46,400 nucleotides of DNA from Clostridia bacterium. Lineage in GTDB: Bacteria; Bacillota; Dehalobacteriia; Dehalobacteriales; Dehalobacteriaceae. The first letter of the stretch is position 1. Each line of letters opens with the position of its first letter. The notes below the pieces were generated by a model, which made no database searches, was not told the origin of the DNA, and saw only the letters and a program-made list of their open reading frames with translations. The translations under genes and the position numbers were made by a program. Location: positions 1-46,400 of the forward strand of contig DUPU01000223.1 of assembly GCA_012838175.1 (NCBI GenBank), read 5' to 3'. Shown piece by piece: positions 5,911 through 14,353 of this stretch.

Positions 5911-6363
5911 TTACCCCATAAGTTTTTCGAACCTTTCCATAACAGCTTCTATCATATCTTTAGGTTTAACTACACAAAAAATGGTATCATCACCGGCTAC
6001 TGTTCCAATAATTTCCTTCCAATCCAAATGATCAATACAAGATGCAATAGCTTGGGCCGCCCCGGGTAAAGTGCGAATAATAATTAAATTCTCGCTGAAG
6101 TCCATTCCTGTGACGTTATCTCGAAATAATCTTTTAGTCCGTTCATGCAAATTTACTAAGGGAACCTCCCCCGGTTTACTGTATTTCCCGCTGTTAAACC
6201 CGGTCGGTATTTTAATTAGGCCTAGTTCTTTAATATCACGGGACACGGTTGCTTGTGTCACATTAAAACCTTGCTCTCGAAGAATTTCTGTTAAGGCAGC
6301 CTGGGTTTCAACATTATAATTCTCGATTATCTCTTGAATTTTTCTTTGGCGGGCAGATTTCAT
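5911..6363 (-). CDS. argR: Arginine repressor ArgR/AhrC
   Basis: 150 aa; QAALTEILREQGFNVTQATVSRDIKELGLIKIP winged helix, C-terminal GTVAGDDTIFCVVK. Confidence 0.97.
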   Translation of the reverse strand: MKSARQRKIQEIIENYNVETQAALTEILREQGFNVTQATVSRDIKELGLIKIPTGFNSGKYSKPGEVPLVNLHERTKRLFRDNVTGMDFSENLIIIRTLPGAAQAIASCIDHLDWKEIIGTVAGDDTIFCVVKPKDMIEAVMERFEKLMG

Positions 6364-8864: not shown

Positions 8865-10751
8865 TTACTTATGATGCTCCTTCATCAAAGGCCATCTGGA
8901 TAGAGCCCGCTCCACTATTACAGAGGCAGAAATTCCATATTCCTCTCTCAGAATGTCTTGTGCTCCATGCACCAGAAAAACATCGGGTAAACCGATAATT
9001 TCCACTTCCGCCTGGGGACATTCTTTATTTAACAGTTCCAGGCAAGCACTGCCAAAACCTCCTGCAACAACATTCTCTTCAATGGTTATAACCCGCTTGG
9101 TTTTTTTTGCATACCTTATCAATAAATCCCTGTCCATCGGTTTTATAAAACGGGGATTTAGCACCGCAGGACTAAAACCCCATTGTTTTAATTGAGCGGA
9201 AGCTTGTAAAGCTAAATAAACCAATGGTCCCAGGGCAATAATGGTTAAATCCTTGCCATCTTCTAATACTTCACCCTGTCCTTTAACAATCTTAGGGTAT
9301 TCTTTTGTTAATTCAACACCTACCCCCAACCCTCTGGGATATCTAATGGCACTTGGTCCGGAAAATTTCACCGACCAGTCCAGCATACCCCTAAGTTCAT
9401 TTTCATCCTTAGGTGCCATTACTACCATGTTGGGAATATGTCTCAAATATGAAACATCAAATACCCCATGATGAGTTTCTCCATCTTCTCCCACAATTCC
9501 CGAGCGGTCCAAAGCAAAGGTGACAGGCAGGTTTTGCATGGCTACGTCATGGAGTACCTGATCATAAGCTCTTTGCAGAAAAGTAGAATAAATTGCTACC
9601 ACCGGATGGTAACCTTGAGAAGCCATACCGGCAGAAAATGTTACCGCATGCTGCTCGGCAATACCTACATCAAAAAACCGCCAAGGAAACTTTTCGGCAA
9701 ATTTGCTCAGCCCTGTCCCTGTAGGCATAGCAGCTGTTATGGCCACAATATTATCTTGTTTTTCGGCCAACTCTACCAGAGTATCACCAAAAACTTTTGT
9801 ATAGGAGGGCGGTCCTTCTTTTTTTATCACTTCCCCTGTTTCCGGTTCAAAGGGGCCAACCCCGTGAAAAGTATCAGGGTTAACTTCTGCCGGTTGATAA
9901 CCCTTACCCTTACAGGTAACCACATGTACCAAAACCGGTCCTTTTAATTTTTTGGCACTTTGTAAGACCCCTTTCATTCCAGGAATATTATGACCGTCAA
10001 TAGGGCCGAGATATGTAAAACCCATTTCTTCAAAAAGCATTCCGGGGACCAAAAGATATTTAAAACTGTCCTTTACTCTTTCCAATGTTTTTAGTACTCT
10101 GGGTCCAACCTTGGGAATTTTATTAAACAATTGTTCTATTTCTTCCTTGCTCTTGCCATACCTGGGATCTGTCCTGATTCGGCTGAGATAACCGGACATA
10201 GCCCCTACATTTGCGGCAATTGACATTTCGTTATCATTCAGCACCACAATCAAATCAGTCTGTAGATCCCCAGCATGATTTAAGGCTTCGTAAGCCATAC
10301 CCCCTGTCAAGGCTCCGTCACCAATCACTGCCACAACTTTAAATTTTTCTTTCCTTAAGTCCCTGGCCTTGGCAATCCCTACTGCCGCTGAAATCGAAGT
10401 GCTGCTGTGGCCTGTGTTAAAGCAATCATGTTCACTTTCAATTGTTTTGGGGAAACCGCTTAATCCCTTATATCTTCTTAATGTAGAAAATTTTCCTTTT
10501 CTCCCGGTTATAATCTTGTGGCAATATGACTGATGCCCCACATCCCAAATGATTTTATCCTTGGGGGAGTTAAAAACTTGATGCAAAACCAGGGTTAATT
10601 CAACTACTCCCAAGCTGGGCGCTAGGTGTCCCCCTGTGATACTTACATTCTTAATAATAAATTGACGGATTTCCTCCGCCAGTTTCTCTAACTCCTGATT
10701 GGAAAGCTTCTTAATATCCTGCACATTTTCCACATTATCCAGCAGTCCCAT
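8865..10751 (-). CDS. dxs: 1-deoxy-D-xylulose-5-phosphate synthase
   Basis: 628 aa; [50 protein letters not shown]. Confidence 0.99.
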
Positions 10752-11380
10752 TATTTATTTCCTTTCCCCCGTCTTTCCAATTTATTCTTTGTTTTTTTCG
10801 GGTTTCTTTGGAACCAAGACATAACTTGTCCCACATAAAGAATAATTTTCTCAGAACCGTTAATTGCGGCACTTTTTCCTGCAGCCTTTCCTCCGACAGT
10901 AATGGCCGCTACCAGTCCGATCATAATGGTCCCAATTATCCATTCTTCCCATCCCTTAATATACCGGGTTAGACTAAGCACAATCAAGGAACCAATGGAA
11001 CCACTGACAGTACCGCAGATATCTCCTACCACATCATTGCAAAAATTAGCAACTTTGTCCGCATTCCTAATCAACCAAATTGATTGTCTCGCTCCGGGCA
11101 GCTTTCGAGATGCCCGGGCATGGAAAGGTGCTTCCTCTGCAGCAGTGGCGGCAATACCGATAATATCAAAAAAAATACCAATAAAAATTATCACCAATAA
11201 AAGGGCAAAAGCAAATATTAAGGAGTTAATATTGTTGAGAAATATTTGAGAATAACTGCTGATTACAACAGCTAAAAAAAAAGTACCCAAAGCTACCTTC
11301 ATGGCATGTTTTAAAGTACTTCTTTTTTTTAAATTATTTTTATTATTTCCCAAACAAATCCACTCCATACGATATATCAT
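10751..11380 (-). CDS. oapA: OapA-like OLE-associated membrane protein (actual start probably TTG at 11353)
   Basis: Multi-TM protein with [61 protein letters not shown]; located directly 3' of the OLE-like RNA and overlapping dxs. GGAG at 11366-11363 lies 9 nt upstream of TTG (11353-11351). Confidence 0.88.
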
Positions 11381-11384
11381 CTTG

Positions 11385-11984
11385 TAGCAGGTGACAGCTT
11401 TTTAAGTAAACATTGTAGCTTAGGTCTGGCAGGCTTTCCCATTGACCTACCAACCGTCGCCAGTTGGCGGTTTCCCTTTACCGGTCAATCTGCAGCGTTT
11501 CCACATGCAGGGCCAGATTGCCACTTAGTCTACACTTTAATCCTTAAAAAGCCTTACTTGGTAAACAGTCTAGGAGTTTTCCTCAACAGTTCCCATTGAC
11601 TTCTAGCCTCTTTTGCAGAGATGGTTTCAGTCCATAGCCCCGGTATTATATGGTCCTAAATACCGGTATAGGATTACAAAAATCCGCCATCACCACTCAA
11701 GGCAGGCTACACTGCACCCAGTATTTCGCCGAATGCAGGTTCACCCCAAGCCATAGTTCCTTATCTGACCAAGATATTTCCCCACGAACTTGGGTCTCCA
11801 CGAAAGCAGGGTCAACGCCTACATGCCATTGTAGATCGCCCTACTTTCTTAACTCCCAGCACCAACCCCCGACTGGGCGTCGAAAGCCGGCACCAGGAAC
11901 TTCATCGATGTGCCCGCAACGGATTTTTAGGCCCGTTTTCAAAGTCAATTTTCACTGACTAGAATACTGCGTCACCTGCTGCCC
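11385..11984 (-). ncRNA. ole: OLE RNA (ornate, large, extremophilic RNA)
   Basis: ~600-nt noncoding, GC-richer block between ispA-side genes and oapA-dxs. Terminal 10-bp perfect helix AGCAGGTGAC/GTCACCTGCT (11971-11980 with 11386-11395); internal perfect helices GCTTTTTAAG/CTTAAAAAGC (11543-11552 with 11397-11406) and CAATCTG/CAGATTG (11514-11520 with 11486-11492). Size, synteny and adjacent membrane protein match known OLE loci. Confidence 0.9.
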
Positions 11985-11990
11985 AGATTA

Positions 11991-12020
11991 ATTATATCAT
12001 GTTTAGCTTCTTCGAAACAA
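11991..12020 (-). promoter_or_regulatory. Candidate sigma-A promoter of the OLE RNA
   Basis: Minus strand TTGTTT - 18 nt - TATAAT (11991-11996), 6 nt before GGGCAGCAGG at 11984, which would start the terminal helix. Confidence 0.6.
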
Positions 12021-12025
12021 GAAGC
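12006..12025. repeat. Inverted repeat between the two OLE promoters, overlapping the proximal -35
   Basis: gcttctt-cgaaac-aagaagc, perfect 7-bp arms. Confidence 0.7.
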
Positions 12026-12280: not shown

Positions 12281-13282
12281 CTATACCATGGTGAATAAAT
12301 TTGCTCCTACATAAAAGATATAAATAAGAATCAGAAAGATACCTTCTTTTTTGCTGATTTCATTGAACCTGTAATTATAGGAAAAGTACGCAAATACTGA
12401 CAGAATTACACCCAAGGCGATAAAATGAATATTATAAAAATCCCGTGAAACAATTATGCCTTCCGGCGATAACACAGCAGATGCTCCTGTCACCAGCAGT
12501 ACATTCAAAATGTTTGCGCCCATTATATTTCCCAGAGCCAATCCGCCATGATTGCTTTTGGCCGCGGCAATACAAGTACTCAATTCAGGAACACTGGTAC
12601 CGAAGGCCACTAATGTAGCTGCAATTATCACATCCGGAATGCCAACCCTGACAGCTAAAACTTCTGCGGAATCAACTAGTAATGATGCACTTAAACCAAT
12701 TAAAACTGCTGCTACCACAATTTTTCCTAAAAAAAATAGGGGGCTGCTCTTTGAGCTTAAAAAAGGTTCCCGCTTTCTATTATTCAAATTAGACTTATTT
12801 TTTTTCTTTTCTTGGTTCAATAAAAAGAAAATGTAAATAGGAACAAGTAATAAAAAAGCGATTCCCATCCCCTGAGGAATCAAACCCTCATTTCCATGTA
12901 TCTTGTAGGGAATGGTAGGAATAATAAGGAGAAACACAGCTATAATCAATAAATTAAACTTCTGAGATGATCTTTTGTCAACAGGGATTTTTCCAAATAA
13001 GGCACCTATCCCAAGAATTAAACTAGTATTTGTGATGATAGAACCCACCGCATTTCCTAATGCAAAATCTCCGTTACCATGCAGTGCTGATGTTGCGGAA
13101 GCGGATAATTCCGGGAGTGTCGTGCCTAATGAAACAATTGTTGCCCCGATTATAATCTCAGGTATTCCCACGATTTTAGAAAGCTCTACTGCATTATCAA
13201 CTAATGCATCCGCCGCCTTTGACAATATAAAGAGGGAAATCCCAAGTACCAGCAACAGAATAAAAATGTTTAAACTTTCCAA
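12281..13282 (-). CDS. Calcium/sodium (CaCA/YrbG family) cation exchanger
   Basis: 333 aa; two inverted alpha repeats: GATIVSLGTTLPELSASATSALHGNGDFALGNAVGSIITNTSLILG and AATLVAFGTSVPELSTCIAAAKSNHGGLALGNIMGANILNVLLVTG. TTG start called by the ORF track; exact start uncertain. Confidence 0.95.
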   Translation of the reverse strand: MESLNIFILLLVLGISLFILSKAADALVDNAVELSKIVGIPEIIIGATIVSLGTTLPELSASATSALHGNGDFALGNAVGSIITNTSLILGIGALFGKIPVDKRSSQKFNLLIIAVFLLIIPTIPYKIHGNEGLIPQGMGIAFLLLVPIYIFFLLNQEKKKNKSNLNNRKREPFLSSKSSPLFFLGKIVVAAVLIGLSASLLVDSAEVLAVRVGIPDVIIAATLVAFGTSVPELSTCIAAAKSNHGGLALGNIMGANILNVLLVTGASAVLSPEGIIVSRDFYNIHFIALGVILSVFAYFSYNYRFNEISKKEGIFLILIYIFYVGANLFTMV

Positions 13283-13431: not shown

Positions 13432-13475
13432 GTTTTCTTAGTTCCTCTTTGCTAATCTTTTACTTTTAAGCCTCC
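13432..13475. repeat. Parental copy (copy B) spanning the ispA stop codon
   Basis: 36/44 ungapped match to 12086-12129; includes TAA of ispA at 13466-13468. Confidence 0.75.
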
Positions 13476-14353
13476 CGATGCAGCACTGTTTTTCCGATTT
13501 CCCGCAGAGGATCCGCACTTGACGTCATATCTTCCAAGAACCAAAGGGCTCTGTTCACGGCTTCTTCCGCTAATGCCCGGGACTTTTCCAATCCTAATAA
13601 AGAAGGATAGGTGGCCTTCCGTTTCTTGGCATCACTTCCCACAGGCTTGCCTAATTTCTTTTCATCCCCAATGACATCTAAAATATCATCAGTTATTTGG
13701 AATGCTATCCCCAGATTTTCCGCATAACCGGTAAGCTTTTCCAAAGTTTTTTCATCAGCACCGGACAGAATTGCCGCAGAACGGACGGCAGCGCAAATAA
13801 GCGCCCCGGTTTTATTCCGGTGAATAAACTTCAGTTCTTCTAAGGAGATATCTTTATTTTCCGATTCTATGTCTGTAACTTGCCCTATGATCATACCTTT
13901 TAGTCCTGCTCTTGATGCCACCTCATCTATTGCCTGAAGCAATCTTTCCGGCGCAGCTCCTTTTTCTCTTACCGCCAGCATCAAGTTAAAAGAATAGGTA
14001 AGGAGGGCATCACCCGCCAGAATCGCTTGGGCTTCACCAAATTTTTTATGGCAGGTGAGCAAACCCCGGCGAAAATCATCGTTATCCATAGCAGGCAAAT
14101 CATCATGAATCAAGGAATAGGTATGGATTAATTCTAAAGCGCAGGCAAAGGGAAGCAAATCAGTTTCTCTATAATCTAATGCTTCTAATGTTGCTAAAAA
14201 CAATACCGGACGAAGTCTTTTTCCTCCCGCAAAAACGCTGTATCTCATAGCCTGATGCAAGATTTGAGGTTTTAGATCGGGTTTGGGCAATAAGCAATCA
14301 AGCTGTTCATTGATTAAAGAAGTCTTTTCTTGAAAGTATTTTTTAATGTCCAT
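13466..14353 (-). CDS. ispA: Polyprenyl (farnesyl/geranyl) diphosphate synthase
   Basis: 295 aa; GGKRLRPVL, LIHTYSLIHDDLPAMDNDDFRRG (FARM) and FQITDDILDVIGD (SARM). Confidence 0.97.
   Translation of the reverse strand: MDIKKYFQEKTSLINEQLDCLLPKPDLKPQILHQAMRYSVFAGGKRLRPVLFLATLEALDYRETDLLPFACALELIHTYSLIHDDLPAMDNDDFRRGLLTCHKKFGEAQAILAGDALLTYSFNLMLAVREKGAAPERLLQAIDEVASRAGLKGMIIGQVTDIESENKDISLEELKFIHRNKTGALICAAVRSAAILSGADEKTLEKLTGYAENLGIAFQITDDILDVIGDEKKLGKPVGSDAKKRKATYPSLLGLEKSRALAEEAVNRALWFLEDMTSSADPLREIGKTVLHREA

Follow-up and report, generated by a model that had tools for sequence, protein, structure and literature searches.

What kind of RNA is encoded by the roughly 600 nucleotides upstream of oapA in the window, the 46,400-nt stretch of DNA analysed here, and are the contacts between its loops those seen in known structures? 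OLE RNAs, to which a sequence-only reading had assigned the block, rank among the largest of those conserved bacterial RNAs whose biochemical function is not known, and have been reported from 2,822 Bacillota genomes (PMC11332333). In a sample of 250 genomes of the phylum, OLE is present in 188, and in the class of the window it is found in 27 of 43 genomes, with 24 full-length OLE RNAs distributed over seven families. Given this frequency and the existing literature, the window RNA belongs to a known and actively studied class of RNAs.

On the minus strand, the Rfam covariance model of OLE (RF01071) matches over its whole length (model positions 1-616 of 616) with 504.3 bits, against a gathering score of 50, and an E-value of 3.9e-145. 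The match is 617 nt long and is the only OLE match in this genome of 2.41 Mb. For comparison, 47 OLE RNAs were aligned and the Rfam structure was projected on the window RNA, with the terminal helix P1 added. The elements that concern the overall architecture are the following:

11375 to 11991, minus strand: OLE RNA gene (ole) of the full-length type (Rfam RF01071 match)
11971 to 11980, minus strand: 5′ strand of the terminal helix P1 (complementarity, covariation)
11386 to 11395, minus strand: 3′ strand of P1 (complementarity, covariation)
11396 to 11553, minus strand: 3′ domain, with the stems of domain 2, among them the P12/P13 region (covariance match, projected structure, covariation)

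Double-sided changes are observed in 125 of the 165 pairs of this alignment, and 88.5% of the cells are paired, a value that falls to 39.6-46.7% when the partners are slid by one to three columns as a control. The window RNA folds much more stably than dinucleotide shuffles of it, with a z of -8.1. The 10-bp terminal helix that had been recognised from the sequence alone is exact: all ten pairs of P1 (AGCAGGTGAC/GTCACCTGCT) are Watson-Crick, and the minimum-free-energy fold contains the helix too. P1 shows double changes in 9 of its 10 pairs with 91% of the cells paired among the 47 homologues, and reaches at least 8 bp in 106 of 121 OLE genes (86 distinct sequences). The Rfam model leaves P1 unpaired, and published OLE models include the stem within the unresolved domain 2 (PMC12265935). 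The long-range complementarity pointed out earlier is also borne out, with GCTTTTTAAG/CTTAAAAAGC forming part of an 11-pair helix (11553-11543 with 11406-11396, minus strand) and UGUAG/CUACA pairing at 11534-11530 with 11418-11414 (minus strand). As had been said, the RNA strand contains no credible open reading frame; a frame of 102 aa on the opposite strand (11650-11958) falls wholly within conserved parts of the RNA and almost certainly does not encode a protein. A decayed ole gene was considered and rejected, all helices and invariant columns being intact.

The genes around the block agree with the neighbours that had been named, an exchanger upstream and oapA followed by dxs downstream:

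10751 to 11353, minus strand: oapA, the OLE-associated membrane protein, 200 aa from TTG 11353 (CNNM-like, PF01595)
8865 to 10751, minus strand: dxs, the downstream neighbour (TIGR00204)
12281 to 13282, minus strand: Na+/Ca2+ exchanger gene, between ispA and ole (PF01699)
13466 to 14353, minus strand: ispA, the usual upstream neighbour of ole (profile match)

The gene order ole-oapA-dxs is kept across the class, and the usual order upstream of ole is xseA-xseB-ispA. The exchanger gene gave no tblastn match in the 44 related loci searched, which points to a private insertion in this genome. OapA matches the CNNM family PF01595 only weakly, with 24 bits and below the cutoff, a likeness that has already been published. 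Its frame is open from an ATG at 11380, which overlaps the RNA match, but the Shine-Dalgarno sequence GGAG (11366-11363) and the TTG at 11353 are kept in relatives, and this conservation makes TTG 11353 probably the start, rather than the ATG. The gene argR (5911-6363, minus strand), named in PMC12265935 as a candidate OLE partner, also belongs to this gene cluster, as it does at many related loci.

The protein partners of OLE are also encoded in this genome. An OapB orthologue, with an E-value of 4.6e-10 to a PDB chain named OLE-associated protein B, is located between map and infA (the KOW matches first taken as OapB are rplX and nusG), an OapC (YbxF) orthologue, with 3.2e-14 to a PDB chain named YbxF, between rpoC and rpsL, and a bS21 orthologue is present as well. 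A search of the genome for an MpfA-like CNNM protein yielded none besides OapA, which fits the anticorrelation of MpfA and OLE reported in the literature; MpfA does occur alongside OLE in three family members. The full-length covariance match, the covariation, the adjacent oapA and the OapB, OapC and bS21 orthologues place the identity of the block as an OLE RNA beyond doubt; the bacterium that carries this ole gene is a member of the Bacillota and a relative of Candidatus Formimonas warabiya. The published OLE RNP is membrane-bound, and stress and Mg2+ responses have been shown for Halalkalibacterium. By homology, the window RNA would bind the membrane protein OapA plus OapB, OapC and bS21, and would dimerise via the loops of its 5′ domain into a membrane-bound OLE RNP, to which the same roles in stress and Mg2+ responses may apply. 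The functional OLE RNP that had been expected in this genome is consistent with this gene content.

The ends of the RNA can be placed with the help of a promoter element:

11991 to 11996, minus strand: -10 element TATAAT with an extended TG, TGATATAAT (sequence, class conservation)

From this TATAAT (11996-11991), transcription is predicted to begin near 11984, four bases ahead of P1, and a possible -35 element, TTGTTT, is found at 12020-12015 (minus strand) with a spacer of 18. A TGnTATAAT-like -10 element is present at the same position upstream of all 24 full-length OLE RNAs of the class, and an exact TATAAT precedes the conserved AGTAT by 24-46 nt in 73 of 119 OLE genes, compared to 13 of 119 in a control interval. 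The gene probably has an extended -10 promoter of its own, yielding an RNA of about 600 nt with its start near 11984; P1 would close this RNA, and the oapA mRNA segment would come after it. P1 and the class-conserved TGnTATAAT element would mark the ends of the transcription unit. Of the extent proposed earlier, 11385-11984, the upstream edge coincides with this predicted start, and the Rfam match widens both limits by a few bases. For H. halodurans, by comparison, the cluster has been published as one polycistronic RNA. The block lies directly upstream of oapA on the same strand, where co-transcription is possible, which would suit a mere 5′ leader or regulatory element of oapA with no separate RNA. 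Nevertheless, the OLE match covers the full length and P1 closes the RNA at both ends, which argues against a leader, as does the published OLE RNA, an abundant, processed and trans-acting component of an RNP, and this extremely improbable reading was rejected.

Several other elements are found near the promoter. An inverted repeat, GCTTCTT-GTTTCG-AAGAAGC (12006-12025), overlaps the possible -35 element, and repeats are found in the same place in the loci L003 (GTTTCTT..AAGAAAC) and L005 (GTTC..GAAC); it may be an operator. A second promoter-like site, TTGCAA-17-TATAAT (12074-12046, minus strand), is located further upstream, and an upstream TATAAT is also seen in L003, L005 and L002.

The published OLE dimers have P4-P8 arranged in parallel, their loops placed where the two chains meet; P9 lies across these arms and reaches into the same interface. 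Three bridges have been described: B1 is formed by L4 with L4 (PMC12286853), in B2 the L6 loop of one chain is joined to L5 and L7 of its partner, and in B3 two L9.3 loops form a symmetric kiss, L9.3 being reported to covary among the palindromes GGCC, GAUC and AGCU. The cryo-EM structures behind these bridges come from other lineages than that of the window. The corresponding arms of the window RNA are the following:

11918 to 11937, minus strand: P4 hairpin with the conserved CUAAAAAU loop, B1 in the published structure (projected structure)
11853 to 11899, minus strand: P5 hairpin with loop GCCCA, a B2 partner (projected structure)
11802 to 11848, minus strand: P6/P6.1, with CAA at 11831-11829, the published bS21 site (PMC12191101), and loop AUGGCA (projected structure)
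11745 to 11794, minus strand: P7 arm, with the apical stem UAUCU/AGAUA (projected structure, loop comparison)
11606 to 11703, minus strand: P9 arm (projected structure)

Of 71 aligned sequences, 70 contain the L4 motif CUAAAAAU. In B2, base 118 of L5 (11874) covaries with base 164 of L6 (11828) as A-U or C-G (Fisher p 1.4e-5); the window has A-U, and 7 of 24 class members have A-C. From these loops, the lineage of the window keeps B1, and the window RNA itself seems to have preserved the L5-L6 contact of B2. B3 is different. Among 107 scored OLE RNAs, L9.3 contains GGCC in 84 and AGCU in 4, while the loop reads GGACCA in the window, and the self-complementarity of L9.3, which is typical of the published structures although not a defining feature of OLE, is absent in the window and in most of the class. 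The altered loop is complementary to that of P7:

11767 to 11771, minus strand: L7 core UGGUC, complement of the P9.3 apical loop (loop comparison)
11651 to 11655, minus strand: L9.3 core GACCA, non-palindromic, complement of L7 (loop comparison)

The sequence-only reading had missed this complementarity, and no mention of an L7-L9.3 contact was found in the main texts of the OLE papers searched; as a feature it is apparently undescribed. The arrangement is carried by all 24 full-length OLE RNAs of the class, mostly with GACCA in L9.3. Class loops were inspected by eye because the automatic choice of hairpins had gone wrong for L9.3 in some sequences (L003, L085), and the counts below come from a hand-registered alignment (A3) of 24 rows, 22 of them distinct, which includes the partial records L204 and L205 and omits the full-length L201 by oversight. 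The L201 loops, UUUGGUCAGG/GGUUUGACCAG, keep the core and would add an A-U flanking pair.

Of the 22 distinct rows, 20 retain all five core pairs; L185 and L196 have a U-U at one core end. Three of the five pairs are invariant in the class rows, and the central position (columns 6 and 23) reads UA in 18, UG in 2, CG in 1 and AU in 1 of the distinct rows. Full compensatory changes, independent of each other, number two in all, UGGCC/GGCCA in L184 and UGGAC/GUCCA in L189. A sixth pair 3′ of the core (G-C, A-U or G-U) is possible in 12 of the 22 rows and unpaired in 10, the window among them; the complementarity extends up to 7 nt in L191, L184 and the genome G005 described below, and is 5 bp in the window. 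In A3, 89% of the L7-L9.3 cells are paired compared to 9-53% in slid controls. The loops have a covariation score of 0.163, a value reached by 2 of 500 shuffles, which score 0.119 ± 0.014. The length of P7 in the class is 50-54 nt with a standard deviation of 1.3, versus 10.9 elsewhere. The complement of L7 is mostly unique within the RNA, the GACCA at 11655-11651 being the sole copy in the window RNA, although genomes of one family (f3) contain GACCA in domain 2 too. GGCC is kept in L9.3 of three class sequences (L184, L199 and L205); in L199 and L205 it pairs with UGGUC via a U-G wobble, a state that is plausible as an intermediate.

Outside the class, at least five complementary L7/L9.3 bases are found in 3 of 111 OLE RNAs, compared to 0.6% with partners shuffled. 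The clear case among these RNAs, from the unrelated genome G005, the sole representative of its family and order, combines UGGCUCC with GGAGCCA over 7 bp and has lost the L9.3 palindrome too; by our estimate, which takes uniform base composition, about 0.04 matches of 7 bases are expected by chance in 111 RNAs. In another family (f19), L7 reads CGGC and L9.3 reads GCCG, a complementarity of 4 GC pairs that grows to 6 bp (CGGCGG/CCGCCG) in L224, and the palindrome is often lost; no covariation of these loops was found within its main genus, and an L7-L9.3 pairing in f19 is suggestive only. Complementary loops in the G005 and f19 records span L209, L224 and L215-L225.

An ordinary OLE RNA, in which contacts with proteins or within B2 conserve L7 and L9.3 separately and the two loops match by coincidence, could account for part of these data: one clade could pass on a chance match, three of the five core pairs never vary, and complementarity of at least five bases is rare outside the class. 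It is disfavoured, and in our estimate unlikely, in view of the two different compensatory changes, the flanking pair that switches between G-C, A-U and G-U, the near-fixed length of P7 and the independent match in G005, and it leaves the loss of an otherwise common palindrome unexplained. Statistical support for an L7-L9.3 helix is moderate. We regard the contact as likely, a grading held down by the few independent events.

The complementarity and the loss of the palindrome together suggest that the symmetric kiss has probably been replaced, and our hypothesis, towards which we lean somewhat less firmly than towards the contact itself, is that in the class and in G005, possibly also in f19, a heterotypic L7-L9.3 helix of 5-7 bp takes the place of B3. 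L9.3, its self-complementarity mostly lost, would pair with the P7 loop in cis or in trans, and after this change of partner from itself to L7 a different contact would hold the P9 arm in place at the interface of the dimer. Taken as a whole, an ole gene whose product forms an OLE RNP with L9.3 re-paired to L7 is a highly probable explanation of the locus.

Whether the helix would form within one chain or between two is balanced, and we hold both arrangements to be possible but tentative to the same degree. Within one chain, P9 would fold back on P7 and the dimer would keep only B1 and B2; both arms belong to one chain, both loops face the dimer interface in the published structures, and the fixed length of P7 would suit a geometric clamp, yet the present evidence fits cis and trans alike. 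Between chains, the helix would occur twice per dimer or chain dimers together and the quaternary structure would be rewired; L9.3 normally contacts the other chain and L7 already takes part in the intermolecular B2, but the known dimer structures are those of other lineages. RNA I and RNA II of ColE1 form loop-loop (kissing) complexes that can reach 7 bp, likewise between two hairpin loops with a complementarity of up to 7 nt. Unlike in that system, both OLE loops are part of one large structured RNA, with 5 bp in the window.

This lineage bears on the question of whether the RNA-RNA dimer seen by cryo-EM matters in cells. The natural swap of one dimer contact for another, covarying one would support selection for tethering of the P9 arm at the interface, and, if true, the quaternary architecture of OLE has been rewired in evolution with the rest of the RNP kept. 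The lineage also offers a ready compensatory design, in which L7 and L9.3 single mutants are compared to the swapped pair.

In relation to known full-length OLE systems (RF01071; Halalkalibacterium halodurans, Clostridium acetobutylicum PDB 9MCW and C. botulinum PDB 9LCR), the window RNA shares the length and the whole model, the conserved nucleotides, the P4, P5 and P6 loops and P1, and its genome shares the location beside oapA and isoprenoid genes as well as OapA, OapB, OapC and bS21. It differs in the non-palindromic L9.3 GACCA complementary to L7, in the P7 apical stem-loop, which is near-fixed in length in its class, and in the exchanger gene between ispA and ole, found only in the window genome. 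Lineage-specific changes in P7-P9 are likewise seen in OLE variants 1 and 2 of the TANB77 and RF39 clades (PMC11332333). These variants shorten or lose P7 and P8, and variant 1 is often without the OapB site too (PMC11332333), whereas the window RNA keeps P7, P8 and P9, with P7 elaborated. Assignment to variant 1 or 2 was rejected, P7, P8, P9 and the P12/P13 region all being present. The survey also includes partial OLE matches (L022, L026), a low-scoring and short one (L016), and genomes with two or three OLE matches each (G172, G202, G221 and G247).
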